From Aurantiochytrium sp. KH105 (Eukaryota > Sar > Bigyra > Thraustochytrida > Thraustochytriidae), in NCBI GenBank assembly GCA_003116975.1, contig BGKB01000123.1, positions 186,001-250,000 of the forward strand: a stretch of 64,000 nucleotides of DNA, written 5' to 3'. Of this stretch, positions 9,892 to 62,800 are shown in pieces. Made by a program: the position numbers and the translations under genes. A model generated the notes under the pieces. It had not been told where the DNA came from and did no database searches. It saw only the letters and a program-made list of their open reading frames with translations. Within the stretch, counting starts at the first letter, position 1; each line of letters opens with the position of its first letter.

Positions 9892-12800
9892 ATGGGCGAC
9901 TCTCACGATGGACGGTCAATATGGCCGCTCCACCAGCGGTCGCAGCGGTCGCACGATGAATCAGAACAAAACTCCGAGTACAGCGCGTCGGACGCGTCCC
10001 AAGAGTTGAAGCTCGTTGAGTCCGAGAGCATGGACGACGTGTTCAGAGTTGAGCAGCGGCCAAGCTTCGAGAATCGGCTAGGCCTCCACGGTAAGAACAG
10101 GCCCATCCGGCATGTCGATGAGGCAGCCCTTGCCATGGCAGCCCGCTCCCCTGCCAGCTTCGTCTTCATTGGCAAGGACCTCCGACACTCGGCCGCTCGT
10201 TCCAGCGTGTATCAGATTTCGAGCGGCCGACGTCTCATGCTCGATCGCGCGCGTCGCCTTGACAGCGAGGTCAATTCTGCGGCCGTGTCAGACTCTTTGG
10301 TCATGCAAATAAAGATTGTTCGCTATGACCCAGACGAGGCGTACTTGGTCAACATGTACGAGGTTGATAAAGAGTGCAACATTTCCTTAAATTTGCGCTC
10401 GGCAACGCGTCTCAAGCTCGAAAAGGGTCGCCATTGGGGCGAGGCGACCGCAGACTTGTTACACAGGTACTTTCCTGCGCTCGGCGACTTGACTGTCAGA
10501 GTGTTCGAAAACAAAGGTGCATCAGGACAACCGTTTCGCCTGCCCGGACGCAGGTCCCTCCGCAAAATATCAGAGTCCGACTCATTAGAGAGCATGGGAA
10601 GCTCGGAGAGCAGCGCCGACGGCACCTCTTCACCACGGCCTTCTTCACAACGCAACAAACGATTGGTCGAAACCGAGCAAGAAGAGGAAGAGAGCAAACG
10701 AGAAGATGATCAGGACTATGACCATGAGAGCGGCGCATTCGCAATGCGGAGCGAGAGTGATGACGATTTTCTCATCGAGGGTGAATCGGGTCTCAGCGAG
10801 GATGTACAAATTGCAATTCACCCTCCGACCGGCAAGTCAAACGAAATTATTGTCGAGCTTGGCCCTGCGGCTGTTGCGGCTCTCGGCTCGGAACACTTTA
10901 TCAAGTGTACGTTTTATTGCCCGCGCATCGAGCGCGAGCGCCACTTCGTATGGCAATGGACCAAGGATGGCCACGTCGCGTCGACACTCAAGCACAGCGT
11001 TGGTTTCCAGATGAGCTCCGTCGCGGTTGCTCTCTCGCAAAACAATGATGACAGCGCCACGCTGCGTCTTGCAGGCCGGCCGACCTCGCTTCCATCCCGA
11101 GCCGTTCCCCCTTCATCGACCTTTATCTTTGATCTCGATGCGTCTGCGACCAATGGAATCATTCCCGTGACGGTGTTGCGGAACATGCTGCTTCACCGCT
11201 GGTTTTTCCCTCCTCGCATTGTCGACAAGCACATTTTACGTGACATTCCGCCAGACCTGGAAGGGATCGGGCCTAGCTGGATCGAGCGTGTGAATGCACG
11301 ACTGCGCGAGCATATTCTCGAGGGCGATATTGACGATGTTGACGAGGACACTCGCGAGGCAATCCTTATTCTCTTTCCATTCGCGTGCAAGGTTGCACTC
11401 GAGACTCTTGGAGGCGGTTTCAGCGGCGCCAAGGTGTACCGATGCGTCAACACAAATTGGGATGGGTCTCAAGAAATTCCTTCTGTCGTCAAAGTCGATG
11501 ATGCCGAGTCACTCGAAGACGAATTTCGACGCATGGTCGAAATCACGCCGCTTCTTGGAGAAAATGCACCACGCATCCTGGCGCGGGCCACACACAAGGA
11601 CCTTAGCGCTCTTCGTATCGAGCTCTGTGGGGCAACCTGGTGTCTTCCCGGCGCTGGCGAGTACAACACTCATATCACAACCTTTCGCAAGCTTTTTAAG
11701 AGCGAGCTCTCCCGTCTAGCGAAAATCCCCACCTCGACAAACGCCCAAGCCTCCCCTGTTTCCCGCATTACACGTCGCCGCCGGGACAAAGTAGCTTCGA
11801 CCACAGAGCTTCCCCACAAGCATTATCCGGGTGCGGAATACGGCTCCAAAATTACGCGGCAGAGTAGCGGGGATGGAAGCAGTTGCAGCAATGGGAGCAG
11901 ACGCAGCCTCGACATTTCTGGAAACGATAGTCACGCGATGGGGGACTGTGTCCCGCATCCGGCAATTGGCCGGTGCCGCCTTGTGCCTCGTTCTGTCAGC
12001 GAGACGCTCGTGCAGCGACCCGGTTCGGCGCAAAGGGACCCGGCCGTGGCGAGTCGTCGACTTCTCATGCGGCAGCACTCGCGAAGTGCCGTCATGCAAG
12101 ACTCTCATATGCAGACGCTTGTGCTCAAGAGGTCTTCGACTATGTCAACAGAGTCTGAGGTGACGCGTGGCACAGAGGATCAAAGCGTGGTGTTTGGGGA
12201 AATCGAGGCGGTTGTAGGCGAAGTATTTGGAACCATTCTTCGCGCTGGCGCCATCGACATGGCCACAGTTGAGCAAAAGTCTCTCTTTGACAAAGATGGG
12301 TACCCGCTCGCAGCCACGGTTCGTCGTCATGTGGTGGAACGTGAGCATGATGCCACGGCAGATCTATTCTTGGGCCCTCAGGCGCGATCTCTCGTTCAGA
12401 AGTGGACCGGTCTCGAGCGTATGGACGTTCGCGAGTACTTTGTTCATTTTCTCGATGTCTTACAAAGTTACGAGCTTGACACTACGGCACCAAAGCAGCG
12501 ACTCATGGGCCACGTGCATGGCGATCTCAACGGTGCCAACATTCTTATTGATGGCGAGAGCATTGTGTGGCTCATCGACTTTGCTTTTTCGGGAATGCGC
12601 CCCGTCCTCATGGATCTCGTCAAACTCGAAAACACACTCCTCTTTGAGTATACGCCTCTTCAAACGGAAGCCAGCCCGGAGGGAATTGCTGTCGCTGAGT
12701 TTGCCAAGGTTGTCGAGGCCTTGGTCAGCAGCACAATTTCTGATCTCCCGCCTCTTGCGTCCCTGGCACCGGACTATCGGGCTCCAGGTCATTTGGCCCT

Positions 12801-15800
12801 CGATCAGCTGTGGAGCGTGCTGCGCCGCATCCGACAGCACGTTGTTGCCTTTTGCGAAAAGGACCCACGTCCAGAATATCTGCACGCAGGCAGACTATAC
12901 TATGCGCTGAAAACACTCTCTTTTCGGGATCTTGGTGTGGAGCAAAAGAGGTTTGCGCTTGCGAGCGCACTTGGGCACGCAAGCAGGCTTGCGCACCTTC
13001 TTGCCCCTGGCATGCTTGGACCACAACGCGCGGTCACGGAATACACGACGGCGGATAAGACGGTTATTGAAGCACAGGTCTCGGCACATTTCAAGAGTCT
13101 GCAGCGGGAGCAGGTCAAACATCTCACCATGGTTGGCGCAAAAGATGCGCTTTTTGTGGACCCTGTGTCACGGAGCAGACTCTCTGTGCTGAAGCAATGT
13201 GTTAATCTCGAGATTGCGGAGCATCCTTTGGGCAGAGGCGACGAAACGGAGTCGAATACGGCCAAGTTCTCCATTATGGACGTCGCAAGCAAGATCGATG
13301 CACTGCTGGAAGCCTTCTCGGAAGCCGCGGACGAGCTTCCCATTCCTGGCATGGTCTGCCCAGGTGATATTCCCATGCTTTGTGCGCAAGATCAGGTGCG
13401 ACTTTGCTACATGCAGCTCTCGCTGCGCACGCCTCTTGAGGATGCGCTGCAGATCACCCTCGAGCCTTTCGCAGCACTCACAACGAGTATGCAATACGTT
13501 CCTGCGCGGGATCTCTCGCGGCGACTTGTTTTCTCACTCGTCTATCTCGAAAGCAAGGTTTTTGCCGAGGCAAAGAACACCACATCTCAGGTCGACGGGA
13601 CGACCAAAGAGACAAGCGCGGTGGCTTTACTCGGCGAAGCCACTGCCTCGGTGCTTCCCAATGTAAATGGAAAGCTTTTCCTGTCGCCACTGTGGTTGCG
13701 GCGAGCGGCGCTGACGCTATTTAACGAGGTTGACGCCCTCCATTACGGTCAGTACTATTCTCGACTTGCAGAATTACTTCCCTCTCAGCTACGCGTCGCG
13801 GAGTCGAGACTTCTCGTACTGCTGGGACCCCCGGCAAGCGGGAAAAGTGTTTTTATGCGTCAAGTTCTTGTCCACGGGACAATTTCGCAGAGTCACAGAT
13901 CGTCATTGTGTCTTGTTCCGCTTCGCATTCGGTTGATTGATATTGGACGTCATGTGCACGAGCTGCAGCTTACAGCGGATGACGATCTGATTATGCTCTA
14001 CCTTACACACCTTTATGGCGCCGCGTCCACGAAGTTGGCGTACTTTCGAAGCATCCTCTTTTCTGGGCGAGTCCTTCTCTTGCTCGATGGCTTTGACGAA
14101 GCTGGAACTTCGCGCGAGGTGATTGTGCAGTACCTGACGCGTTTCTTGCAGCGCAATCAGGACCTGCGCGTTATTGTCACGTCGCGCGAAACCGGTTTTG
14201 TCGAGTTTCAGGATCGTTTTCACGCCATAGGTTTCAAGGGTCTAAAGATGCAGCCCCTCTCGACGGCCATGACCCAAGATATTGTGTCGCGTCGCTTACA
14301 TGATGGTGAGCAGGATCCCTTAAATCTTCAACTGCAGCGACAGATTCAAGCCGCAGAATTTCGAGGCATCGCCCACAATCCTCTCATGCTCAGTCTCTTG
14401 GTGCACGTGCTCAAGTCCCACAACGAGGCTTCTGCGTCTTCGGTGCGCCGGCTTTCTGGGCAGCTCACACCGATCGAGAGTACGAAGGCCCTTCCTGTGG
14501 CTCGTGAGGGAGCGCCAATGCTCCGTTCCCAGCTCTACGCCTTGGCTGTGGACCAGATGCTTCATCATGGCGATCCAAAGTACAAACGACATCGCAGTCG
14601 CGAGGACAAGGCGATTGGGCGGGACCTTGGACTTCTGCAGGACCCCTTGGCGCGGAGTATTCTTTGCAACGTGGCCCTCTTGGTCCACAGCCGTCGGTAT
14701 ATCGAGGTTGGACTCGATGACTTTGGCGCGGTTGTTGTGGCTCTTTCGACGCAGGGTCTCGGCGTCGAGGATGACGAACGCGCCCGCATCTCCAAAAGGC
14801 TTGTGACCGTGAACAATGGACTGCAACGAAGTATTCAGCGTAACTTGGTGCCGCTCTTTGAGCTTCGAGAATCGCAGACGCGCAATTCGGCGCGCAGTCG
14901 AGAGTCTCAAGCCTTCTCGCGTACTCTGATCTTCACTCATCTTTCGCTTCAAGAGCACTTGGCCGCGGAATGCATTGCTGAGCGGCTCGCGCTTTGTCAT
15001 GGCATGAATGACACTGAGGGCTTTTTGCATGTGTGCAGCGCGTACTTTGGAGGACATCTTTTGGAGGATACCTGGTGGCATGACGTGTTTCTGAGCACAT
15101 GCGAGATTCTGAGCTTGTCCAGTGAGGGGGCCTTGCACCATTTGCTTAGGGCGCTCTTTGTAACGGAGCAGGTCTCGCGACATATGCAAGCCACGCTCAT
15201 CGCGCTCAAGCAAGTATGGATGACCACTGCGAAGCAGGGTAACGTGCCGGCTCTGGTGGGTCTCTTGAAGCAGCGAGCAGATATCAACGCTTCTTACGTG
15301 GATCCGAGCCTCGAAGGCGGCGAGACGTTTGACTTGGTCTTTGTCGTTGATCAGTACCAGAACACGTGTCTGCATCACGCAGCTGAGAACAATCGGCTTG
15401 TTTACGTTGACGAATTGGGCGTGAATGTCAGTTTTGCAGACATTTCTAGGCTGCGTTCGACGAGCAATTTTCAATCCTGGAAGCCCAGCAGCACGGCATC
15501 GTGCAACAACAATCTGGAAATGCATCGCAAGCTGGTGCGTACGCCGGGCGATGAAGACGTTGACGAGGAAGACCCGAAGACGGTTCCAGAGATCGTGAAA
15601 GCCATCAAGGCTCAGGACGGCGATGCGGCTTGTGCACTTTTGGCAGAAAATTCGACGGTTTTTGCGGCGAGTGGATCGACAGGCATGACTGCGACAATGT
15701 GGGCGTGCGTGATGAACATGCCTGAAGTGCTGGAAAGGCTGCTTGAGGCAGACAAGGAGCGTGAGTTCATGACTGTTTGCTCTCGTAAAGGAAACACGTG

Positions 15801-16473
15801 TCTGGCCTTTGCCGTGGAGCATAATGCACGCGAGTGCGTCGGTCAGCTCCTGGCGCGAGGGATGTCGCCCACGTGGCGAAGCCGAAACAAGGACACACTT
15901 TTGCTCATCGCCACTTCGTTTGGCTTCAATGAAGTTGCAGCGCAGCTGATTGAGTTTGGGGCCATGTCTGGCGAGGCGATTGTGGTCTCTGCTCTCCAGG
16001 GCCGTGACGGCTTTGTGCAAAAGCTGCTGGAGATTTGTGGCGACGACGCTGCTCATCTTGTGAACCATGTCGTCAATATTGGGGTGAACCCGCTTGCCGC
16101 TGCCTGCGTTGCGGGTCATCAGAGTACGATCGCGCTGCTCTTGGCCATGGGCGCCGACGTGAATCATCCCATCAACGTACAAATGGGTACTTGCGCTTTG
16201 CATGTCGCGATGCAAAAGTGCAATTTCGAATGTATTGATCTTTTGGTGAGCAATGGAGCCAATGTGAATCTTGCGAGCCCTGCGGAGAGCGCTGCAGTTC
16301 CAGGGCAGACGGCTTTGAGCCTCGCTCTCAGTATGAGTGACCCGAATGCGGAAAGCAACGAATTTGTGAGCTATTTGCGCACCCACGGTGCCAAGACATG
16401 GGAGGAGATGACGCCTCAAGAGCAGGATGAAAATACGCGCTCCTGGTATGCGATTTTTGGACCCGCCAAGTAA
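9892..16473 (+). CDS. APH-like kinase + NACHT ATPase + ankyrin repeat protein (NOD-like)
   Basis: Single-exon ORF of 2193 residues. Residues 1-490 are not recognised (Ser/acidic-rich linker 222-300). Residues ~497-1040 look like an aminoglycoside-phosphotransferase/choline-kinase-type fold. A Gly-rich loop LGGGFSGAKVYR (506-517) is followed by VVKVD with Lys534, then a Ser/Arg-rich insert (~605-770), then HGDLNGANILID (876-887) and LIDFAFSG (894-901). The catalytic residues Asp878, Asn883 and Asp896 are therefore retained. Residues ~1300-1700 form a NACHT module: Walker A GPPASGKS (1312-1319), Walker B RVLLLLDGFDEAG (1393-1405), sensor-like RVIVTSR (1426-1432) and the NLR-type FTHLSLQEHLAAE (1681-1693). 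Ankyrin-like repeats cover about 1780-1845 and 1900-2165. It is probably a cytosolic signal-transducing STAND ATPase with ankyrin ligand sensing. NACHT and ankyrin calls are firm, the kinase call is good, and the immune role is inference. Confidence 0.88.
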   Translation: MGDSHDGRSIWPLHQRSQRSHDESEQNSEYSASDASQELKLVESESMDDVFRVEQRPSFENRLGLHGKNRPIRHVDEAALAMAARSPASFVFIGKDLRHSAARSSVYQISSGRRLMLDRARRLDSEVNSAAVSDSLVMQIKIVRYDPDEAYLVNMYEVDKECNISLNLRSATRLKLEKGRHWGEATADLLHRYFPALGDLTVRVFENKGASGQPFRLPGRRSLRKISESDSLESMGSSESSADGTSSPRPSSQRNKRLVETEQEEEESKREDDQDYDHESGAFAMRSESDDDFLIEGESGLSEDVQIAIHPPTGKSNEIIVELGPAAVAALGSEHFIKCTFYCPRIERERHFVWQWTKDGHVASTLKHSVGFQMSSVAVALSQNNDDSATLRLAGRPTSLPSRAVPPSSTFIFDLDASATNGIIPVTVLRNMLLHRWFFPPRIVDKHILRDIPPDLEGIGPSWIERVNARLREHILEGDIDDVDEDTREAILILFPFACKVALETLGGGFSGAKVYRCVNTNWDGSQEIPSVVKVDDAESLEDEFRRMVEITPLLGENAPRILARATHKDLSALRIELCGATWCLPGAGEYNTHITTFRKLFKSELSRLAKIPTSTNAQASPVSRITRRRRDKVASTTELPHKHYPGAEYGSKITRQSSGDGSSCSNGSRRSLDISGNDSHAMGDCVPHPAIGRCRLVPRSVSETLVQRPGSAQRDPAVASRRLLMRQHSRSAVMQDSHMQTLVLKRSSTMSTESEVTRGTEDQSVVFGEIEAVVGEVFGTILRAGAIDMATVEQKSLFDKDGYPLAATVRRHVVEREHDATADLFLGPQARSLVQKWTGLERMDVREYFVHFLDVLQSYELDTTAPKQRLMGHVHGDLNGANILIDGESIVWLIDFAFSGMRPVLMDLVKLENTLLFEYTPLQTEASPEGIAVAEFAKVVEALVSSTISDLPPLASLAPDYRAPGHLALDQLWSVLRRIRQHVVAFCEKDPRPEYLHAGRLYYALKTLSFRDLGVEQKRFALASALGHASRLAHLLAPGMLGPQRAVTEYTTADKTVIEAQVSAHFKSLQREQVKHLTMVGAKDALFVDPVSRSRLSVLKQCVNLEIAEHPLGRGDETESNTAKFSIMDVASKIDALLEAFSEAADELPIPGMVCPGDIPMLCAQDQVRLCYMQLSLRTPLEDALQITLEPFAALTTSMQYVPARDLSRRLVFSLVYLESKVFAEAKNTTSQVDGTTKETSAVALLGEATASVLPNVNGKLFLSPLWLRRAALTLFNEVDALHYGQYYSRLAELLPSQLRVAESRLLVLLGPPASGKSVFMRQVLVHGTISQSHRSSLCLVPLRIRLIDIGRHVHELQLTADDDLIMLYLTHLYGAASTKLAYFRSILFSGRVLLLLDGFDEAGTSREVIVQYLTRFLQRNQDLRVIVTSRETGFVEFQDRFHAIGFKGLKMQPLSTAMTQDIVSRRLHDGEQDPLNLQLQRQIQAAEFRGIAHNPLMLSLLVHVLKSHNEASASSVRRLSGQLTPIESTKALPVAREGAPMLRSQLYALAVDQMLHHGDPKYKRHRSREDKAIGRDLGLLQDPLARSILCNVALLVHSRRYIEVGLDDFGAVVVALSTQGLGVEDDERARISKRLVTVNNGLQRSIQRNLVPLFELRESQTRNSARSRESQAFSRTLIFTHLSLQEHLAAECIAERLALCHGMNDTEGFLHVCSAYFGGHLLEDTWWHDVFLSTCEILSLSSEGALHHLLRALFVTEQVSRHMQATLIALKQVWMTTAKQGNVPALVGLLKQRADINASYVDPSLEGGETFDLVFVVDQYQNTCLHHAAENNRLVYVDELGVNVSFADISRLRSTSNFQSWKPSSTASCNNNLEMHRKLVRTPGDEDVDEEDPKTVPEIVKAIKAQDGDAACALLAENSTVFAASGSTGMTATMWACVMNMPEVLERLLEADKEREFMTVCSRKGNTCLAFAVEHNARECVGQLLARGMSPTWRSRNKDTLLLIATSFGFNEVAAQLIEFGAMSGEAIVVSALQGRDGFVQKLLEICGDDAAHLVNHVVNIGVNPLAAACVAGHQSTIALLLAMGADVNHPINVQMGTCALHVAMQKCNFECIDLLVSNGANVNLASPAESAAVPGQTALSLALSMSDPNAESNEFVSYLRTHGAKTWEEMTPQEQDENTRSWYAIFGPAK

Positions 16474-16768
16474 AATGAAGAATTTTTGAATAGTATACTT
16501 TGGTGGCATTTGATCTGCGGTGGCCCCTGGGCTCGGCTCGATGAGCAAGCAGCAAGCTAGGCTCTTTATTCTGGCTGCACTTGGCTAGCTAGCCGGTTGA
16601 CTGGCTAATTGGCTGCCAATTCTGCTATTCTTTTTCGTTTTGGTGAGATGCGTTCTCGCGTGCCAATCTCTGAAATAAAGGAAATGCACTTGCCAGGGTT
16701 GGTTGGTTGGTTGGTAATGCAGAGATTGTGACAGAAAACATCTTTGATAATGATAATCATGTTCGAGT

Positions 16769-19576
16769 TTATTCAGAGTTGACGGCGCGGATGGCCTCGT
16801 TGAGACGATCGACGGCACGCGGCGTGTGGTAGGGGCCAAAGCCGACGCGAACAAAGTTTTTGCGGAGGTCGATGTCAATGTTGTGGTTCTCGCTGAGCTG
16901 GGCAACAACCTTGGCGGCCACCTCGGCGTTGTCCTGACGGAAGACGAGAGTGTGACTCTGCGTGGCCGGGTCATTGGCGATGCTAACGAGACGAGCCTTG
17001 GAAAAGGGCTTGTCGGCGGCTTCCTCGGAAGCGACGCCGTCCTTGAGGAAGGACGCTTGGGCCTTGAGAACGGCATCATGCATGAAGGGGACGGTGATGC
17101 GCTGCTCGCGCCACATGCGCATGACATGGACAAAGACGACGAGGCAAGGCAAGAAGGAAGGCGTACCGCCGAGGAGGGAGAATCCCTCGCAAAAGTTGGC
17201 CTCGGAGCCCATCTTGATGCCGTCGCTGCCGTTGCCGAGGACCGAGGGGTCCGCGAGCCAGCCAGTGAAGAGTGGGCGCGGGACGCTGCGCTTGGGCGGG
17301 AGGGCAATGAAGCAGGCGTTGGAGGAGGATCCGACGTGCTTGAGCATGCCGGCAACGTAGTGGAAGCGGGTCGTTTCAGCGCCACTGAGGTCCGTGGGCA
17401 GGGCACCAAAGCCGTGGTAGCCGTCAACAATGACGAGCGAGTCCTTGTTGGCCGGCGACTTGTCGAGCGCGGCGGCAGCACGGTGCGAAAAGGCAGCAAC
17501 ATCCGGGAGGAGCGTCTGCTGCTGCAGGTAGGTGCACTGCGAGACGTAGACGAGATCAACGACAGGGGTGGCCTCGATGGTCTCGATGATGCGCGCCTCA
17601 AGCGTGTCGCGGGGCTCAATGGGGACGGTGATGACCTTGAAGTGCTCCTCGCCGAGCTCGCGCATGCGGTTCATCTGGCGGGTCATGGAGTAGAACTCGT
17701 TGTCCGTGGTGATGACGACCTCGGGGCGCTTTTCGAGGAGAGCCTTTTCAAGGCGCTGCGAGAGCAGGCGAGAGACGACCTCGTGGGAATTGTGGCCGAA
17801 CTCGATCGGGTGCGAGCTCTCGAGGCGCAGAATCTCGCGAACAAAGGTGCTGGCCTCCGGCATGATCTGGCCAAAGAGGATGCCCCAGCAGTGGTTGCCC
17901 TCGACATGGTAAAGTCGGTAGAGCTCCTTGAGGCCCGCGTAGAGAGCGCGAGGCGGGATGTCGCCCCAGGCGTGGTCAAGGAAGGCAAGTTTGCGATCCT
18001 CCGAGGTGCCAAAGCTGCGGGGCACGCCGGTCGTGCTGTAGAGCGCTCCGAGACGATCATCGACGACGACGGAGGTTTCGCTGTCGCTGGCCGGGTTAGG
18101 CGAAGAGGTGCGCGACGGCGAGGAGCCGCGGTTCTCCTCGATGGCGTACATGATGCGGCCCTTGAGGTGCGCCAGGCGCTCGTCGGTAATCCGGCCAAGC
18201 TCGGAGCGTGCGTGGTCGAGCACGGGGAAGACGGGCTTTTCAAAGGTCTTCTTCAGTGCCATGACGCTCATCTTCATGGTGCCCTTGGCGGCGCTGCCGA
18301 TGACGTTGGTCGCGAGAATAAAGTGCTTTTGGTAAAAGCCGCCAATGAGCGCAGACTCGACGATCTCGAGGGACTTGATGTATTCATAAATAGCGGGCTG
18401 GCGCTCGGGATGAGCGTAGAGCTCGAGAAGGGCATCTTGCACGTTTTCGTCTTCCTGTGGGTTCTCTGCGTCGACGGCCGTTGCGTCGACGAGGCGGTCC
18501 AAGACGGGCTGCATGAGCTCTTCGACGCGCTTGCGGAACTGCTTGACCTGCGTGCTGCCAGCGCCAGAGGTTCCCTCGATCTCCACCTTGAGCTCGAGGT
18601 AGTCGCGGAGGACCATGCTGGTGAGCATCATGACATGGGCGCCGAGGTACTCAAAGGTAGAGGCGGCGACGCGCACGCAGGCTGCGGCGTTGCAAAAGTG
18701 GCCATTACGCTTGATGTGGTTCTGGGCGGAGCTAATGCGGTCCAGGAGCACAAATGCCCAGCACTCGGTGCCGAGGTGAATGGCACGAAAGAAGAAGTCC
18801 TCCTTGTGCTGGTACTCTTGGTCGGTGAGCAGGCTTGCGACGTGCGCGGAGCGAACCATTTCCTCGTACGCGAGGTACTTGCGGCCGTAGGGCACGGCAT
18901 AGGGCGACAGACCGACAAGCTCGCGCAGTGCAGAGAGTTGTTCCTCGACACCAACGCCGACGGACCAGTCGCCGAAGCAGGTCGTGAAGGCGCCGGTGAT
19001 GTTGCGGACGATTTTACGCAGAGACTGGGCCTCGTGCGCGTCCTGGTCTCCGTCCTTCTTGACCCGTTCAACGGCTTCAATGACGAGCTTGAGAGCGGAG
19101 GACTGGCGCGAGCGGTCGATGTTGGTGTCGGCGGCGGTGGGTGGACCGTCCTCAATGGGGAAGCGCTGCAAGAGGGATCCGATGGGCTGCGGCGGAGCGT
19201 CGGTTTCCAGGCGCTCTTCCTCGAGCTCGCCGTCGATGACCTCGGCAAGGAGCTGGAACTGGCGCTCAATATCGGCAGCGATCATTTCGATGCGCGGCCG
19301 CTTGACGACGTACGGGCGGTCATCGTTGATGAAGTGCGCGAGGAGCACGAGGGCGAGCTCCACGCCCTGCATACCGGCCGTGAAGCAAGGCTCGAGGCGC
19401 GCGTTCTTGGTCAGGGGCGCATTCCAGCTGTCCCTGAGGCCGTGGAGGAACACATAGTCTTCGTACAGGTCGCGGATGCGTGCCTCGCGCTTGGCCTTGG
19501 TCGCCGCCACCTTGGCCGCGACCTCCTCCTTGCTCTTCACCGCCGGCTGCTGCTGCTGCTGCTGCTGCTGCTCCAT
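16769..19576 (-). CDS. Tryptophan 2,3-dioxygenase-like / kynureninase-like PLP enzyme fusion
   Basis: The product is 935 residues. After a poly-Gln start, residues ~35-450 resemble the haem-dependent tryptophan dioxygenase superfamily. FFFRAIHLGTECWAF (261-275) matches the family's F..HQ..ELW helix, EGTSGAGS (334-341) the substrate loop, and QKHFILATNVIG plus GTMKMS (416-437) the WR..H...IG..GTGGSS motif, making His418 the candidate haem ligand. Residues ~500-935 look like a fold-type I, class V PLP enzyme closest to kynureninase: VVITTDNEFYS (620-630), VIVDGYHGFG (715-724, Asp718 as PLP ring partner) and GMLKHVGSSSNACF (743-756, Lys746 as Schiff-base lysine). These are steps one and three of tryptophan-to-anthranilate catabolism. 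A PrnB-like relative of the dioxygenase is an alternative for the N-half. Convergent with the NACHT gene. Confidence 0.78.
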   Translation of the reverse strand: MEQQQQQQQQPAVKSKEEVAAKVAATKAKREARIRDLYEDYVFLHGLRDSWNAPLTKNARLEPCFTAGMQGVELALVLLAHFINDDRPYVVKRPRIEMIAADIERQFQLLAEVIDGELEEERLETDAPPQPIGSLLQRFPIEDGPPTAADTNIDRSRQSSALKLVIEAVERVKKDGDQDAHEAQSLRKIVRNITGAFTTCFGDWSVGVGVEEQLSALRELVGLSPYAVPYGRKYLAYEEMVRSAHVASLLTDQEYQHKEDFFFRAIHLGTECWAFVLLDRISSAQNHIKRNGHFCNAAACVRVAASTFEYLGAHVMMLTSMVLRDYLELKVEIEGTSGAGSTQVKQFRKRVEELMQPVLDRLVDATAVDAENPQEDENVQDALLELYAHPERQPAIYEYIKSLEIVESALIGGFYQKHFILATNVIGSAAKGTMKMSVMALKKTFEKPVFPVLDHARSELGRITDERLAHLKGRIMYAIEENRGSSPSRTSSPNPASDSETSVVVDDRLGALYSTTGVPRSFGTSEDRKLAFLDHAWGDIPPRALYAGLKELYRLYHVEGNHCWGILFGQIMPEASTFVREILRLESSHPIEFGHNSHEVVSRLLSQRLEKALLEKRPEVVITTDNEFYSMTRQMNRMRELGEEHFKVITVPIEPRDTLEARIIETIEATPVVDLVYVSQCTYLQQQTLLPDVAAFSHRAAAALDKSPANKDSLVIVDGYHGFGALPTDLSGAETTRFHYVAGMLKHVGSSSNACFIALPPKRSVPRPLFTGWLADPSVLGNGSDGIKMGSEANFCEGFSLLGGTPSFLPCLVVFVHVMRMWREQRITVPFMHDAVLKAQASFLKDGVASEEAADKPFSKARLVSIANDPATQSHTLVFRQDNAEVAAKVVAQLSENHNIDIDLRKNFVRVGFGPYHTPRAVDRLNEAIRAVNSE

Positions 19577-52608: not shown

Positions 52609-53874
52609 TATCCCGCCGGATCCGCTCCCGCGCCGTCCACCGGGCCTGGCGCAGCGCTCCCCGCCTCGCCTCGCGCCGCCGCGCGCGACCCCCGGCTCTC
52701 TCCCGCGCGCCTCCCGCCCGCCCGACCTTCGCGCCGGAGTCCCTCGCGAAGCGGTCAGAGCTCTGCTGGAGCAGCTGGAGCTAGCTAGCTGTAGCTGCCG
52801 CGACGCGGCTCAACTGCTGTCCATACTGGGCGTAATAGGAGCACGCCTAGGAGGCCGGTCGGCATGCCGGACGAGCCCTGCCCTGCAAGGCACGGCATGG
52901 CGCAGTGGGAGTAGGTTGACTGCTTGCGAGGGCCCCCAGGGAAGGAATCGACGTCGATGGGCGACGATAGGGACGACGAGCGTGGAGGGAAAGGAGAAGA
53001 GTGCCAGGAACGGGCCAGCGCTGCGATGCGGTGCAATGCAATTCATTGCAAGGAAACAGGAACTGGGATCACGGTCAGGCCGGCGGAGGATCCGAGTCGA
53101 CTTCTTTTTTGGCTTGCACTTATTAGACTCGATGGATGCGTGGCGGTGGAGATGGGCGAGGAAAAATGAAGTATGATCACGGTGACCACGTCACGTCGCC
53201 AAAGGGGGGAGGGGGGGAAGGAGAATCCTTTGGCGTGATGTTTATAGAAGTCCCCTTCCACTCTCTCCCTTCCCTTTCCTTCCCTTCCCTTTCCCTCCTT
53301 TCCTCCCTCTCTTTTTCTTCTTTTCTTTTTTCCATCTCCGGGAGCATGGCCGGGCAACTTGCCCATCAGCGATTTGACCGTTGAGCCGTTGGTTGCAAGG
53401 CCCATAGTAAACTCGTATAAATTGCCGCATGCAGCGCACAAGGCGAAAAGACCGTTCGGCCTAACGCAGGCGGCTGGCGGCCTCAAGCGCAAAGAAGGCA
53501 GGCCTAGGGCAGCCTTGGTTGCTTCGAGTTTAGCAAAATAAAGACGTCTCGGCGGCTCGGGCAGACCTCACGCCCGAGCTTGCGGCGCCCGGGGGCTCTG
53601 CCTCGTGCGCACGAGGCGTGCGCAGACCGAGGAGGGTCTTTCGGACTTGTGCGCAACAGCTTGTACGTGTGTTGCAAAAGCGCTTGCTCACGCGCAAGCA
53701 GCAGCAGAAGCAAAAAAGCAAAAGCAACAAGAGACAACAGCGAAAAGGACAACAAGACCACGGAGGAAAGCGCAAGAGCGATACTCCCTCCAAACGTTCG
53801 TTCGGCAATCTGTAGAAGAAGAAGAACAACAACAACAACAAGTCAGAGACGTAAGGACCCGAGACCGCAGGATC
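52609..53874. other. Divergent promoter region, PP2A-type phosphatase / dynein
   Basis: No gene supported. A polypyrimidine tract (mostly CCCTT/CTTTC) covers 53251-53336, with a G-rich run just before it at 53198-53220. AAGCAGCAGCAGAAGC and ACAACAACAACA repeats lie in the presumed dynein 5' UTR (53697-53842). Confidence 0.6.
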
Positions 53875-56800
53875 ATGGACTCAAGATCTGCAACCGAGGT
53901 GCCGGAGACGGCTGATGAGATGGAGTCCAAGCATATGCGCCACGACGAGGGCGTCGACCCTCGCAGCAAGTGGCTCGAGCAGCGCGTCCAAGGCGCCTTG
54001 CGCCACGTCAAGGCGGAAAAGCTACGCAAGAGCTTTCGCAGCGACGAAAACGCTCGCGCCATCGTAGACTTCTTCAAAAGCCCCGAGTCAAGGTGCCTCC
54101 TCGTGCTCGGCGATGGGGCCACGTTCACGACGGCCATGCCTTCGAAACTTCAGAGCAACGCTGGGAAAATCCTCTACTTTCTCAAGCAGGGCGCCCATGA
54201 GCTCTCGGAGACCTGCGACATGGACGCAGAAGTCTCCATGGGTGAACTCAGCAGCGAACCTCTTGCGCACATGGAAAAGGCCATTCAATGCGTATACATG
54301 CCGCTTCTCGCTGGCGCCACTGGCGCCCAAGAAGGTAGCTGGGGCGATGTGACGAGCAAAGACATTGTGGACAAGCTACATGGTTTCCTCGCCACTGTCA
54401 GCATCACGCTCGGCCAGACCCAGGGCGAGACCTGTCTGCCTTTACCGCTTACCGAGACGGGCGCCAGTGCCTCGGGCAGCAGCCACGTGCCAACGCCAAG
54501 CAAAGATAAAATCCATCTTCTCGAAGGTGCCGTCATTACCTGGACCAAGCAGATCAAGAACGTGCTCAAAATGGACCCCGAGTCCAGACTCAAGGTCGGT
54601 GCCAACCCTACTCCTGACCAAGAGATTGCTTTCTGGCGAACCAAGGCCGCCAACCTGAACAGCATCTTCACTCAGTTGCAGAGTGACCGTATTCGCAAGG
54701 TTCTTCGCGTCCTCGATTCAAGCAAGAGCACCTACTGCAATCCGTTTGCCAAGCTGTGCAAGGAGGTCTTCTCAGCGCGCATCGAGGCCAACGACAACGT
54801 GCGCTATCTGGCAATGCTCGAGCCGTGGGTCAACAAGCTGCAACAGCGGAACGGGGAGTTCCAGGACCTTGTCGCGCACTTCAAGCCTGTCATGCACACC
54901 ATTCTGCTCATCTGGAAGTACTCCGACCATTACAACACCCCGGCACGCCTTGTGGTACTAATGCGGGAGATCTGTAACGCTCTCATTGCGCAGAGCTGCG
55001 ACTTTGTCAGTGGCGACCAGATCTTCGAGCTCATCGAAGCCGATGAAGCCACCAAGGCCGTCGAGAAGCTCAAGGTCACGCTCAAGGTATGCGGCACCTT
55101 CAAATCCACTTACTTTGACTACAAGGCCACCGCCAACACAGAGTGTCCCAACAATCCGTGGCGCATCCAGAATAATGCCCTCTTTCTCCGTCTCGACTCC
55201 TTTTTGGAGCGCTGCCACGACATTCTTGACCTCACCCAGACCATCGTTCAGTTCAATATGCTGAGCAGGATCGAGATCGGTGGTACCAAGGGCAAGGCGC
55301 TCACCACTTCGGTCGTGCAAATCTATGCTGACTTCCGTCACGCCGTCGAGGCCTTCCAGCAAGTGAACTACGACATCATGGATGTGAGCGCCAAGGAGTT
55401 TGACGACGACTTTTACGATTTTCGATGCAAGATCAAAGAACTTGAGCGGCGCCTTGGTTCTATCCTTACCCAGAGCTTTGACGACGCAGCGACCATCAAC
55501 GCTCGCTTCAAGCTGCTCGACTCATTCGAGGGCCTTCTGGAGCGCCCCATCATTCAGGACGAGCTCGAGAAGAAGCATATTTCCCTGGTTCAGGCCTACG
55601 CGGCTGACCTCAAGCTCGTGCAAGAGACCTTTCTGGAGCTTAAAGACGACCCTCCCATCCCAAGCAACATGCCGCCAGCGGCAGGCGCCATTGGCTGGTG
55701 TCTTGGCCTGCTGGATCGCATCACCGAGCCAATGGAAAAGCTTCGCCAACTCAACCGCACCATCATGGACCGCGAAGAGGCTAAAGACGTGATGAAGATC
55801 CATCAAGGCGTGGTGGAGACCTTTAACAAGTATTGCAAGTCCAAGGCGCAGCATTGGGCTGCATGTGTTGACGAAACTGCCGCTGCCAAGCTCAAGCTGC
55901 CTCTTCTTCGCCACCGTGACATGGAGGCCATGCTTGCAGCTGCAGCCGCAGCTGTCGACTCTTCCGCGCTTGAGCACGCTGGATCGAAAGAGGGTTCCAC
56001 CGAAGCGGAAAGTGAAGCCAGCAAGGCTTCTGCATCGGCCTCCGCCTCGGCAGCCGCGCACATTGAGCAGATTAGGCAACACCAGAAGCAGGTCGAGGCC
56101 CATGGCGGCTTCACCTACAAGCTGCTCGAGGTCAACTTTGACCCTCAGCTTATTGCGCTCCTGCGCGAGGTCAAGTACTTTTTGCTGCTCAAGCTGGACG
56201 TTCCTGGCTTTGCGCTTGAGCTCAATAAAAAGGAAAAGCAATTCCGAAACTGGCGTGGCAAGCTGCAGCTCTGTGTCAACAAGTACAACAGCATGATGAC
56301 ATCGATTCTCCCCGTCGAATGCCCTCTTGTTCGCGCACAGGTGGAAAAGATTCATAGCGTTGTACAGACTGGGCTCTCCATGCTCACGTGGAAGTCGCAT
56401 GGCATCGATGGCTTTATCGAGAAGACAGAAATGGCAGTCTCCGAGGCAGAGACTACCTTGAGCGTGCTCAAGAGCAATCTTGCAGAAATCGAAGACATTT
56501 TGGACTCTTGGTCCGAAACTAGTATTCTCGACCGCCAGCCAAAGCCGGAGACGGTCAAGGAGTACAATCAGCTCCATACGACCCGCATTGGCGCGCGCTA
56601 TCAGCAAATCACGGAAGGCGGCAAAAACATTCATCGTCTTCTCAAGGAGAGCAACAAGACGCTCCGTATCTCGGCGGGCCACCCCGAATGGCGCTCTTAT
56701 GTCGACTTTGTCAACAATGTCGTCGTTGGCGGCTTTACTCGCGTCGTCCAGGTCTCCCTGCAGTGGCTAGAAGACCAAGTGGACCCAGCCGTCATTGAAG

Positions 56801-59800
56801 AGAAGGAGAAACCGCCCATGCTGCAAATCTCCATCAACCTCAATAACAACCAGGTCTCGTTTATTCCCAGCGTCTTTGATGAAGATCGTGCGGGTGTCAA
56901 GGCCTCGTTGCGTTCCTGGATTGATGACACCCTCAAGGCTGGCTCGCTCATGAAGCGTTTGGACATGGGGGAAGGATCATACGTCAAAGAGCTCCAGCAA
57001 GATGTAGAGGTCAAGGCACGTATGGAGGCCATCTCCGCGCATGTGAGCCGCAACGAGGAGCGCTGCCGCGAATTTCAAAAGCAGTACGAAAAGTATTCTT
57101 TCCTGTGGTCAACCGACCTGCAGGCCATGTTCGCTGACTTTATCGCTTCGGCCACCTCGCAATCCGACAACGGCCTCCGTCGCATCGATCTTGGCAAGTT
57201 TGACGCAGAGATGAACCGCCTGAACGACATCAAGGAGGAGGTGGCCTCGCTCAAGACCCCGACCAATATCGGCTGGCTCAAGATTGACTCCACGCCGATC
57301 AAAGAGAATATCGTGTACTGGGTGCAAAAGTGGCTTCATCTCTACACGGGTTACCTTCGTGACGACGTCATTTCCAAGCTGCAGAGTCTGCGCATCTTCA
57401 TCATCGAGACGCGCCGCGGCCTCGAGCGTGAGGTCTCTGCCGGGGACACAGACACCCTCATGTCGGTCATGGGCAACATTCGCGATGTGCGTTGCCGCAT
57501 GGACGACACGATTGAGATGCTTCAGCCGCTCAAGGATACAGTGAATCTCCTCAAGCAACACCGCGTTGACATCGATGACGAAGTGCTCCACGGTCCTCCC
57601 CCGGTCGAAGACGGCGCGATTCCAGGTTCCCCGGGCCAAGCTTCGCCCACCTCGCCCGGCTCAGCGCATGCCCCGAGCTCCGAACCGCTCCTCGAATTCC
57701 TCGACGCCGCGAGCCTTAAGTGGGACTCGCTCGTGAACTTTACTTTTCGCGTCAAGGAACAAATCATGCCGCTTCAGAACCAAGAGGTCGAGTTCATCAA
57801 CGCGAGTCTGCAAAAGTTTCGTGGTCACGTCGAGGAGTTTCGGGAGCTCTTCAAGGACGAAAAGAAGGGGGCGCCCTTTGCTTTTCGCGGCTCCATTGAC
57901 GACGCTTACGCTCTTATTTCCAAGTTCCGTGGTCTCTATGAAGAAAAGCGGGAGCGCGCCGAGGAACTCAACCGGCTTGAGGAGCTCTTTGAGCTCCAGA
58001 CGAGCAAGTATCGCACGCTTGCTCAGACCGAAGCCGAGCTCGATGTGCTGAAGAACCTTTGGGACTTTAAGGCCATGCAAGCCTCCACATATGAGTCGTG
58101 GAACTCGACCCAGTGGAAGAAGATCGACACCGACGAGCTCGAGCGCTTGAACTCGGATCTCTCCAAGGGGCTGAAAGCACTCGGCGCCAAGGATCCAATG
58201 TGCCGCGCCTGGCAAGTGTACCAGGATATCGAGCAGGCGTGCAAGGATATGGCTGTCATTCTTCCTCTTGTGGCCGAACTCCACTCGCCCGCCATGCGAG
58301 CCCGCCACTGGAAGGCCATCGCAGCTGCCTGCAAGGTGCCCTCCATTGCGTGGAACTCGGAAGCCTTTAATTTTGCTGCCGTGCTCCAGCTCGAATTGCA
58401 AAAGCATGCTCTTGATGTTTCGGAGCAGGTCGAAACCGCTGTCAAGGAGCTTAAGATCGAGCGCAAGCTCGAAACCATCGAGTCTCGCTGGGAGACCTTG
58501 CGTCTTGACTTTATCGACCAGGCAGGCAATCTCGCGTCTGAGGTCGCGAACCCTTATGTTGTATACTTGCCGCGGCCTTCGGACGACGTGGTCGAGAACC
58601 TCGAGACCGACCAGCTCGAGCTGCAGACCATGATTGGCATGGGCAAGTTCGTGAAATACTTTAAGGATCGCGTATCCAAGTGGCTCCACACGCTTAGCGA
58701 TATCGAGGCCAACCTCAAGGACTGGCTCAACGTATCGAAACAGTGGTGTTCGCTGGAGTCCATCTTCTTGGGCAGCGCTGATATTCGCTCGCGACTGCCT
58801 GAAGACACCAAGCGTTTCGAGGCTGTAGACCACGAGTTCAAGGAACTCGAGGCTCGCGCTTTTTCGGAAAGCCCTCTTGTTGTGCACCGCTGCACGGAAG
58901 AGGGCCTGAGCGCCGCTCTTCGTCGCATGCTCGTCGACCTCGCCAAGTGCCAAAAGTCTCTCAACGAATATCTCGACACCAAGAAGAAGGTCTATCCTCG
59001 CTTCTACTTTGTTTCGAATATGGCTCTTCTCGACATTCTTAGCAATGGAGATGCGCCGAAGCGAGTTGTTCCGTACCTTGCTGACTGCTATGACGCGCTG
59101 GCTGACCTCAAGTTCAAGGACGAGCATGCAGAGAATCCGCACGTGGCCACGCACATGATTGCTGGCGATGGCGAAACGATCGAGTTCCCTTACAGCTTTG
59201 AAATGAAGGATTCTGTCGAACACTGGCTCAACAAGCTTACCGACATGCAGAACCTCACGTTGAAGACTGTGCTTCGGGCTGCGATCGACACCGCAGTGAA
59301 CTGGGAGCATGAAAAGCCGCGTCACGAGTGGCTGTTTGACTACCCTGCTCAGGTTGTTCTGCAGGCTTGTCAGGTGTTCTGGACCGAGGAGACTGAGGCC
59401 GCGCTTGAAGACCTTGAGGCCGGCGGTGAGGACGCTGTCAAGCAGTATCTTGAAAAGTGCAATGAGCGCTTGAACCGCCTCATCAAGCTCGTTGAAGGCG
59501 ACATGAGCAAGTCTGACCGTACCAAGGTCATCTCTCTCATCACCATGGACGTCCATGCACGAGATGTGGTGCACAAGCTCATTGACGAGAAGGCAGAGAG
59601 CCCGGCCTCGTTTCTGTGGCAGCAGCAGCTTCGCAACTACTGGAAAACGGTCAACCCGAACATGGAAACTGACATTCGTATCTGTGACTTCAAGACCAAG
59701 TACTCTTACGAGTACGTCGGGAACTGCGGTCGATTGGTCATCACCCCACTCACGGATCGATGCTACATTACGCTCACGACCGCGATGCGCCTCATGCTTG

Positions 59801-62800
59801 GTGGTGCGCCGGCCGGGCCTGCGGGCACCGGCAAGACGGAAACCACCAAGGATTTGGCCCGTGCCCTTGCGCTCCCATGTTATGTTTTTAACTGCAGCGA
59901 CCAGATGAACTACCAAACCTTGGCGGACATCTTCAAGGGCCTGAGTCAATCAGGCGCGTGGGGCTGCTTCGATGAGTTCAACCGAATTCCGATCGAGGTG
60001 CTCTCCGTTGTTGCGACGCAGGTCAAGACCGTTCTGGATGCAGTTGTACGCTTCGCTGAGCCGGCAAACCGCCCGGAAGATCTCGTGAGCCGCTACGGCG
60101 AGCTCGGACTTACACCGGGAACACCGCCTTGCAAGGTTGGTTACTTTGACTTTTTCGGCGATGACCTTTGCCTCGTGCCCACGACTGGCTTTTTCATTAC
60201 CATGAACCCTGGATATGCCGGACGCACGGAGCTGCCTGAGAACCTGAAGGCGCTCTTTCGCTCGTGTGCCATGATCCGGCCGGATCTTGCGCTGATTTGT
60301 GAAAACATGCTCATGTCCGAAGGCTTTCAAAAGGCGCGTGCGCTTTCCGTCAAGTTTGTGACGCTCTACCAGCTCAGTTCCGAGCTTCTCTCGCCGCAAG
60401 CCCACTATGACTGGGGTCTACGCGCGGTCAAATCGGTGCTTCGTGTTGCAGGTGTACTCAAGCGCAGCAACCCTGGAATGGAAGAAGAAGCAGTGCTCAT
60501 GCGCGCGCTGCGAGATTTTAACACGCCCAAGATCGTGGCACACGACATGGACATCTTTTTGCGCCTCATTGCGGACCTCTTTCCGCAGTACGCAGAATCG
60601 ACGCCCAAGGTTATCAATGAAGTCCTTAAAGATACGACTAAGACGGTGTGCCGTCAGTCAAGTCCTCCACTCCAGTCAGATGAGGCATTTGTCGCAAAGG
60701 TCGTGCAGTTTCAGGAGCTTCTCGACGTGCGTCACTCTGTGATGCTCATCGGTTGCGCCGGATCCGGCAAGACCACAATCTGGAAAACCTTGTTGCAGTG
60801 CCACAATCATCTCGGCAAGCAGCGCACGGGGACGGACAAGAAGGTTGCCGTCGCGGAAACGATCAACCCCAAGGCGGTCACAAGTGACGAGCTGTACGGA
60901 TTTATGAGTCTTAGCAAGGATTGGAAGGATGGCGTGCTTTCCATTATCATGCGCGGCATGAGCAAGAACTATCGTGATCTGGGATACCATGCATACCAAA
61001 CGAGCAAGTGGATCGTTCTTGACGGCGACATCGACGCTGTCTGGATCGAATCCATGAACACGGTCATGGACGATAACAAGGTACTCACGCTTGTGAGCAA
61101 TGAACGCATCCCGCTGAGCGACTCAATGCGGATGGTCTTTGAAATCAATTCGCTCAAAAACGCGACGCCCGCCACCGTTTCACGTGCTGGAATTCTCTAC
61201 ATCAATGAGACAGACATTGGCTGGAGGCCCTTTGTAGAATCGTGGCTGACGACGCTACCAAATGAGATGGCCAAGGACTTGATTCCCCAGTTTTTTGACA
61301 AGTACGTCGAACGCATCACGGATTTTATGAAGGAGCACAAGCTTCGGTCGATCGTGCCCACGTATACGATCAGCGCCATCCAGACGATTTGCAGTCTCGT
61401 ACATGCACAAATTGGCCCCTGGGCAGCCACACCTGCTGTTGCGAGTGGCGGAGGCGTGACGGGCAACGGCGCGCAGTATCTTCTCGAGCAAATTTTTGCT
61501 TATGCCTGTGTGTGGGGCTTTGGAGGCAGTCTGGCTGCCGAGAAGGGCTCGGACGCCAAGGCGCTCTTCAGCATGCTCTTTGTGCAGGCCTTCCCGGGCA
61601 TCATCCCGGTCGACGACGCCAGCACGGTCTTTGATTACTTTATTGATACCACAATGCTGGGCCAGCCCGACGAGGCTTGGCGTCACTGGCGTGAACATGT
61701 CGAGGACTTTGTGCCGCCGTCTCTCATCGGCAGTGGACCTGGACAGACCCCTTTCTCCGCACTTTACGTCGACACGGTTGACAATGTGCGAACCAGCCGG
61801 CTTGTGGACATGCTTTCCGCGCAAAACAAACCGGTCATGCTGGTTGGAGGAGCCGGCACAGGAAAGAGCGTTATCGTGCAGAACTGGATGCGTGAGCTCG
61901 TTGCTAACAACGAGAACATGCTGTCGACGCTAATCTCGATGAATTACTTTACGGACTCGGCTGCATTCCAGCGGCAAATCGAGGGGTCGATCGACAAGCG
62001 CTCGGGCCACCGTTTTGGGCCTGCGGGCAACAAAAAGCTCGTCTTTTTCATCGACGATCTCAACCTGCCCTTTGTCGAAGAGTATGGTACCCAGAACGCG
62101 CTATCGCTGCTGCGCCAGATTATGAGTTACGGAACCTTCTTCGATCGCCATGATCCTGGCTTCCGCAAGGAGATTGTCGACGTACGCTTCGTTTCAGCAA
62201 TGAACCCATATGCTGGCAACTTTACGGTCAGCGAGCGCGTGCAACGCTACTTTACGACCTTGGCGTGCTCGATGCCCAGCCAGGAGGACCTGAACACGAT
62301 CTTCTTGTCCATTCTCGACGGTCATCTCCAAAGCTTCCCTCCATCCGTCGAGGCGATGCTGAGTACACTGGTGCAAGCTACGATTTCACTTCACACTCGA
62401 GTTGCCGAAAAGTTCCTCCCTTCGGCCGTGCGCTTCGTCTACAATTGGAACATGCGCGAGTACGCGAATGTATTCCAAGGCATATGCCGGTCCAAGGCGG
62501 AGGTCGTGAGCACCCCTGTCGACATGTGCCGCTTGTGGGTGCACGAGTGCCGGCGCGTGTACAGCGATCGACTGATCGACGAGACGGATCGCTCTCGCTT
62601 CAACGATATTCTTGTCGATGTGTCCAAATCCTTTGCCCTCGAAGACGTTGAGGATTTGCACAAGGAGCCACTCCTTTACACCAACTTTGGCCTGACCGGC
62701 GACGGTGGCGGCGAAGACGATCCCTACGCTGGCGTGGAGTCCTTTGCTCAGCTTACCAAGATGATGCAGGGCCGTCTTGAGGATTACAACGAAGTCTTTC

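Follow-up and report, generated by a model that had tools for sequence, protein, structure and literature searches.

An NLR-like candidate from Aurantiochytrium sp. KH105 that joins a predicted TCAD9/APH-type kinase to NACHT and ankyrin parts

A kinase-NACHT-ankyrin protein in a thraustochytrid

The 64,000-nucleotide stretch of Aurantiochytrium sp. KH105 analysed here (contig BGKB01000123.1, positions 186,001 to 250,000; the window) carries an open frame of 2193 codons, with an ATG start in the standard code, whose product joins a TCAD9 kinase of predicted aminoglycoside phosphotransferase (APH)-type fold to a NACHT module and C-terminal ankyrin repeats. With a slight preference, we read this protein as a NOD-like receptor (NLR)-like (STAND) intracellular switch with phosphotransfer output, whose kinase would be bacterial in origin, its fusion with a STAND ATPase predating the split of the gene from its paralogs. 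The parts of the gene are as follows.

9892..16473, plus strand: whole gene, single open frame (intact allele L025 on a second contig)
9892..11361, plus strand: N-terminal region, residues 1-490, without recognised domain (Pfam, PDB and own-genome searches)
11362..13071, plus strand: TCAD9/APH-fold kinase, residues ~491-1060 (Pfam TCAD9, predicted model, Foldseek)
11746..12180, plus strand: kinase insert, residues ~619-763, probably disordered (predicted local distance difference test score, pLDDT, below 50; model residues 140-284)
12517..12540, plus strand: catalytic loop HGDLNGAN, residues 876-883, with D878 and N883 (alignments)
12571..12585, plus strand: metal-binding motif LIDFA, residues 894-898, with D896 (alignments)
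13072..13776, plus strand: kinase-NACHT linker, residues 1061-1295 (no Pfam match; model unreliable there)
13807..14301, plus strand: NACHT domain, residues 1306-1470 (Pfam NACHT; Foldseek of a low-confidence model)
13825..13848, plus strand: Walker A motif GPPASGKS, from residue 1312 (K1318)
14071..14100, plus strand: Walker B motif VLLLLDGFDE, from residue 1394 (D1399, E1403)
14932..14958, plus strand: NLR-type helix FTHLSLQEH, residues 1681-1689 (similar motif in the paralog on contig C10 and in L037)
15172..15681, plus strand: variable hinge, residues 1761-1930 (10 amino-acid changes among 14 nucleotide differences)
15682..16401, plus strand: ankyrin repeats, residues ~1931-2170 (Ank_2 4.6e-23, Ank 4e-16; PDB ankyrin matches)

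The frame is maintained as one protein

The assembly comprises 76.0 Mb in 367 contigs, and the majority of the loci found there are paired. The gene itself is paired as well: the copy on the window contig, C123, has an allele on contig C51 that is likewise an intact frame of 2193 residues. The two alleles differ at 164 nucleotides, which are distributed 20/22/122 over the three codon positions, and at 37 amino acids. Because the C51 allele is intact and the differences fall mostly at third positions, a chance frame is unlikely, and the intact frame noted in the original prediction, which was made from the sequence alone, is borne out. The ratio of nonsynonymous to synonymous rates (dN/dS) between the alleles amounts to 0.087 for the whole frame, with 0.029 for the kinase, 0.035 for NACHT and 0.082 for the linker between them, 0.14 for the ankyrin part and 0.15 for the N-terminus, which shows that purifying selection acts across most of the frame, on kinase and NACHT alike. 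The flanks of the alleles diverge by 5.7% upstream and by 3.3% downstream (aligned bases, gaps excluded). In the hinge the ratio is 0.75; there, 10 amino-acid differences stand against 4 remaining nucleotide differences, as compared to 27 against 123 elsewhere (Fisher p 5.9e-5, for a contrast chosen post hoc with the data already seen).

It is highly improbable that the frame is an artefact in which two genes, or a fusion in decay, have been mistaken for one. Within the gene, a frame of 742 residues on the opposite strand (14320-16548, minus strand) does show that long frames without coding evidence occur locally; this antisense frame is likely due to chance, since the allele differences fit the sense frame. 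The artefact is opposed by the third-position bias in kinase, linker and NACHT and by three paralogs in which kinase and P-loop share one frame that is free of stops in both alleles. Moreover, purifying selection spans kinase, linker and NACHT, which speaks against the division into a kinase gene and a NACHT gene that had been considered at the outset.

A TCAD9 kinase with APH-type fold and conserved active site

Among Pfam families, TCAD9 (PF19974) matched the kinase region best (7.4e-26, 91.7 bits, above the family cut-off of 40 bits), and APH matched at 2.8e-6. This agrees with the APH-type kinase that had been predicted, whose residues Asp878, Asn883 and Asp896 indeed occupy these positions. 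K534 and E544 are kept as well, being invariant in a six-row alignment and conserved to at least 90% in a 54-row alignment. The catalytic K, E, HxD, N and D are retained at all four TCAD9 loci of the genome (see below), and a pseudokinase is disfavoured on this ground.

An AlphaFold model of residues 480-1125, based on an alignment of 54 rows (seven from this genome and 47 from the 59 bacterial loci described below), reached a mean pLDDT of 69 and a predicted template modelling score (pTM) of 0.67, with 384 of 646 residues at 70 or above. Foldseek comparison to the PDB yielded two matches at E <= 0.001, glucosamine kinase 6hwk and APH(3')-Ia 4gkh; among the 50 matches listed, 45 are APHs, glucosamine kinase, Rv3168 or ethanolamine kinase, and five are protein kinases. 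APH(3')-Ia 4gkh, glucosamine kinase 6hwk and ethanolamine kinase 2qg7 are alike to the model in fold (Foldseek probability 1.00, 1.00 and 0.96; template modelling score by target 0.57, 0.36 and 0.34, respectively), whereas the query is 8-10% identical to them in sequence, carries the long insert and is fused to NACHT. By this model, residues ~491-1060 adopt an APH-type kinase fold with complete active-site motifs; a different fold, raised beforehand as a possible outcome, was not obtained. PHROGs contained no family matching the kinase part. A viral source was also considered and discarded: of 25 pattern matches in the viral contigs scanned, none was confirmed as a relative.

NACHT and ankyrin parts

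Pfam and the FTHLSLQEH motif at residue 1681 confirmed the NACHT module with NLR-type helix and the C-terminal ankyrin repeats that the original prediction had named. Of the tripartite layout of NLR/STAND proteins, the protein shows the NACHT P-loop in the centre, with its Walker A and Walker B motifs, and the C-terminal repeats; the TCAD9 kinase precedes NACHT and may act as the effector. The query also matches NPHP3_N over the Pfam cut-off (9e-7). A PDB sequence search with the NACHT part returned nothing significant, and its best NCBIfam match, antiphage EruA at 2.5e-4, lies far below the cut-off. PADLOC, applied to the query and two pieces of C10, gave one strong match (2e-17), which falls in the ankyrin part, and others at E 0.0089 or weaker.

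Four paralogous loci

There are four TCAD9 loci in the genome, and each is present on a pair of contigs (C123/C51, C10/C7, C38/C160 and C19/C185), and one copy of each was scanned with Pfam. At all four, a P-loop ATPase match lies behind the kinase; in hmmscan, the NACHT of C10 (33.3 bits) is the sole one over the cut-off. Ankyrin repeats are found at the C-terminal side in the query, C38 and C19. Allele dN/dS amounts to 0.163 for C10, 0.101 for C38 and 0.254 for C19.

Altogether, nine NACHT locus groups were found in the genome, and the Pfam scans covered all of them but C131/C20. The NACHT part of the query finds a better match in C10/C7 (31% over 445 residues) than in C26/C252 (30%), a NACHT-ankyrin gene without kinase, which in turn provides the best match to the ankyrin part of the query (38%). 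The remaining NACHT matches have WD40, TPR or other architectures (six locus groups scanned, including C26/C252), and C78/C169 looks closer to an AAA_5-vWA protein than to an NLR. The same genome also encodes a 773-residue protein (C74/C178; L041:3412-5730, minus strand) in which an AAA_16-type P-loop is joined to an SH2 match (4.3e-5).

The paralogs also bear on the role of the first 490 residues. These gave no Pfam match and nothing significant in a PDB sequence search (best E 0.36), and within the genome the allele was their sole match at E <= 0.01; residues from 414 onward are included in a weak match to C38. One could imagine that this region is the effector and that the kinase is a regulatory or scaffold part, which phosphorylates its own NACHT domain or binds nucleotide. 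The N-terminus is coding, constrained (dN/dS 0.15) and without assigned domain, as such an effector might be. However, N-termini are not common to the four loci (apart from the weak C38 match, their comparison with each other gave nothing better than E 0.6), whereas the kinase is common to all four with its complete catalytic set, and we regard an N-terminal effector as quite unlikely. A remnant of isochorismatase, a domain that accompanies TCAD9 in bacteria, was detected by hhalign in none of the four eukaryotic N-termini.

Bacterial relatives of the kinase

A search with a profile built from the four kinases led to 59 bacterial loci (L045-L103; 141 pattern matches), in keeping with the bacterial relatives that had been anticipated. 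When ten of the 59 were scanned with Pfam, TCAD9 was found in all ten, isochorismatase in seven (three over the cut-off) and a dual-specificity-type phosphatase in eight. A Walker A pattern behind the kinase in the same frame occurs in none of the 59 loci, two of the frames being cut at the 3' end. Three conserved genes follow downstream in nine of the 40 loci examined. In both downstream sets that were scanned, the first gene encodes a MoxR-type AAA ATPase (AAA_3, AAA_lid_2), and of the third genes, the one in L064 matches vWA weakly (E 0.003), while the other has no vWA match. Since only one of the two sets has a vWA match, and a weak one, a full ternary system is suggested and not more. Ternary conflict systems and their MoxR-type ATPase setting are described in passages of PMC7159879 (eLife 2020), from whose main text the word TCAD9 is absent, and a passage of PMC10910872 names TCAD9 as vWA-MoxR-VMAP-associated. 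The proposed link between relatives of the kinase and bacterial conflict systems finds its counterpart in the MoxR-type operons at nine of 40 loci.

TCAD9 was detected by Pfam in 24 of 400 genomes of Chloroflexota (20 over the cut-off), eight of 386 of Cyanobacteriota and 25 of 282 of Myxococcota (the phyla of genomes G004, G003 and G001, respectively); these counts rest on the top few candidates scored in each genome. Eleven further bacterial proteins, chosen for long frames, were then scanned with Pfam; of 18 bacterial regions retrieved, the scans covered the TCAD9 proteins of all but L193-L197 and L202-L204. Two of the 11 are TCAD9-NACHT-FGE proteins, two TCAD9-NB-ARC-TPR and one TCAD9-AAA_35, two have weak STAND matches under the cut-off, and four have no STAND match. 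Ankyrin repeats were found in none of the 21 bacterial TCAD9 proteins scanned with Pfam. Because TCAD9-NACHT, TCAD9-NB-ARC and TCAD9-AAA_35 fusions exist in bacteria, the pairing of kinase and STAND ATPase is not unique, and the combination is less singular than the original prediction supposed; in addition, PKinase is among the N-terminal domains of fungal NLRs, according to passages of PMC4986451. Two further proteins show other pairings: in L188:9545-13624, TCAD9 occurs together with a receiver-domain match and another match of APH type, and in L189:3944-6739 a protein kinase is joined to TCAD9.

Kinase phylogeny

In a tree of 46 rows, comprising the four kinases of this genome, 25 drawn from the 59 bacterial loci and 17 further rows, the four eukaryotic kinases form one clade (support 97/91), which falls together with the isochorismatase type and two Myxococcota rows (98/95) and sits apart from the TCAD9-NACHT-FGE and TCAD9-NB-ARC-TPR proteins. 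Supports of 98/95 and 96/91 were obtained when five rows were removed. Placing the four kinases together with NACHT-FGE was rejected by approximately unbiased (AU) tests (p 0.019), as was placing them with both fusion types (p 0.010); a grouping with NB-ARC-TPR was not rejected (p 0.066; 0.141 without the five rows). These values apply to groups defined after viewing the tree, to long branches, and to a midpoint-rooted sample skewed to relatives of the four. The kinase is probably of bacterial ancestry.

These data also address whether the whole kinase-STAND fusion was inherited from a bacterium, for instance as TCAD9-NB-ARC-TPR, with only the C-terminal repeats swapped. Bacterial fusions exist and the AU test is compatible with the NB-ARC-TPR type, and yet it rejects the NACHT-FGE type and both types together, and the best trees group the four kinases with proteins that by motif have no Walker A behind the kinase. 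We consider inheritance of the whole fusion unlikely. That the kinase-STAND pairing formed independently in this eukaryote appears to be the better reading of the trees, although it is not proven.

Genomic surroundings

Pfam scans of ten other frames in the window, out of 34 listed frames of at least 250 residues, identified a dynein heavy chain, a MyTH4-FERM-WW protein and a protein kinase as neighbours, and for this reason we take the locus to be eukaryotic. Bacterial contamination is ruled out by these neighbours and by the presence of each of the four TCAD9 loci on two contigs. MoxR ATPase or vWA genes were not found among the ten frames. The dynein heavy chain frame (53605-63999, plus strand) extends past the window end. 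About 300 bases downstream of the gene, a 935-residue frame on the opposite strand (16769-19576, minus strand) has a weak match to Hs1pro-1_N (3.7e-7), which is over the cut-off; the Hs1pro-1 family takes its name from a plant nematode-resistance protein. The genome further has a match to a PfaA-like synthase (930 bits, under the model cut-off of 1010), which fits a labyrinthulomycete.

Discussion

According to our favoured reading, a STAND switch with phosphotransfer output, the ankyrin repeats would sense a ligand, and ATP binding by NACHT would drive opening and probably oligomerisation. Opening may then activate or cluster the upstream TCAD9 kinase, whose output would be the phosphorylation of a small molecule or protein. 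The kinase would have been acquired from bacteria, from the isochorismatase-TCAD9-phosphatase branch, and joined to the STAND ATPase before the four paralogs split, with the C-terminal sensors diverging afterwards.

Several observations weigh against this reading. By hmmscan, the NACHT match of the query (2e-5, 24.9 bits) is just under the cut-off of 26.7, albeit the same domain scored 30.5 bits in the whole-genome search and thus over it. The model of linker and NACHT is poor (pLDDT 45.5), and Foldseek of the NACHT model lists ORC first, followed by NLRP, NLRC4, FtsH and other AAA+ proteins. Among the paralogs, the NACHT of C38 (20.1 bits) is under the cut-off and its Walker A lies ~280 residues ahead of a Walker B-like motif, C19 has only AAA_16 and AAA_22 matches, both under their cut-offs, and the repeats of C10 are HEAT matches under the cut-off. 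As the tree is rooted at its midpoint, the direction from bacteria to eukaryote is one that we infer. Finally, there are just four loci, and the ankyrin parts of the alleles differ by as few as five amino acids; fungal allorecognition NLR sets, unlike these four loci, are large and variable.

The latter points would suit a regulated kinase of metabolic or developmental signalling, in which the STAND part gates the phosphotransferase on an internal cue and which has no role in defence or non-self recognition. Purifying selection, the few ankyrin allele differences and the low copy number are in its favour, and STAND ATPases also serve as regulators outside immunity. Indirectly, the bacterial relatives point the other way: the nearest bacterial kinases precede MoxR-type ATPase genes in nine of 40 loci, a setting that passages of PMC7159879 assign to conflict systems, and the bacterial STAND fusions bear FGE or TPR parts resembling proposed invader sensors. 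C-lectin folds including FGE on STAND proteins are proposed as antigen sensors in a passage of PMC10907252, and effectors include kinases related to aminoglycoside kinases in a passage of PMC8195603. A purely metabolic or developmental role seems to us doubtful, albeit worth serious consideration.

Carrying the favoured reading of a STAND switch further, this protist lineage may have built an NLR class of its own, in which a kinase from bacterial MoxR-type conflict operons, combined with NACHT-type switches, would convert infection or non-self cues into phosphorylation of a metabolite or messenger. We advance this extension tentatively, as a speculation that could well fail; phosphorylation of a metabolite or messenger as output of a eukaryotic NLR was not found in the literature searched. 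The kinase of the protein described here would link a eukaryotic NLR-like architecture with conflict systems of bacteria, and phosphotransfer as output of a NACHT switch becomes testable. That TCAD9 is found with several kinds of STAND ATPase, in bacteria as well as in this eukaryote, suggests an interchangeable kinase module. What is noteworthy is a eukaryotic family of four loci with conserved active sites and a kinase of bacterial conflict systems; its novelty is lessened by the known bacterial TCAD9-STAND proteins and kinase-bearing fungal NLRs. The matches listed from the open-access literature included no eukaryotic protein in which NACHT is joined to TCAD9 or an APH kinase. For Aspergillus oryzae, passages of PMC6237848 assign NACHT, aminoglycoside phosphotransferase and ankyrin to separate genes, and passages of PMC9815663 and PMC7539657 contain nothing on a TCAD9/APH-type kinase of this sort.

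Compared with known systems, the protein has the TCAD9 family, the active-site motifs and the tree group in common with the bacterial isochorismatase-TCAD9-phosphatase proteins, which, unlike it, have no Walker A behind the kinase (none of 59) and no ankyrin repeats (ten scanned). The order of kinase, STAND ATPase and sensor-like C-terminus recurs in the bacterial TCAD9-NACHT-FGE (L200, L201) and TCAD9-NB-ARC-TPR (L191, L192) proteins, in which FGE or TPR takes the place of ankyrin and whose kinases are separate in the tree, a separation that the AU test backs for NACHT-FGE only. Fungal NLRs, as portrayed in passages of PMC4986451, resemble the protein in their layout of effector, NACHT and repeats, in their ankyrin tails and in a kinase among the N-terminal domains. 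However, the fungal kinase is a PF00069 protein kinase, whereas the protein described here, from another group of eukaryotes, carries an APH-type TCAD9 kinase.

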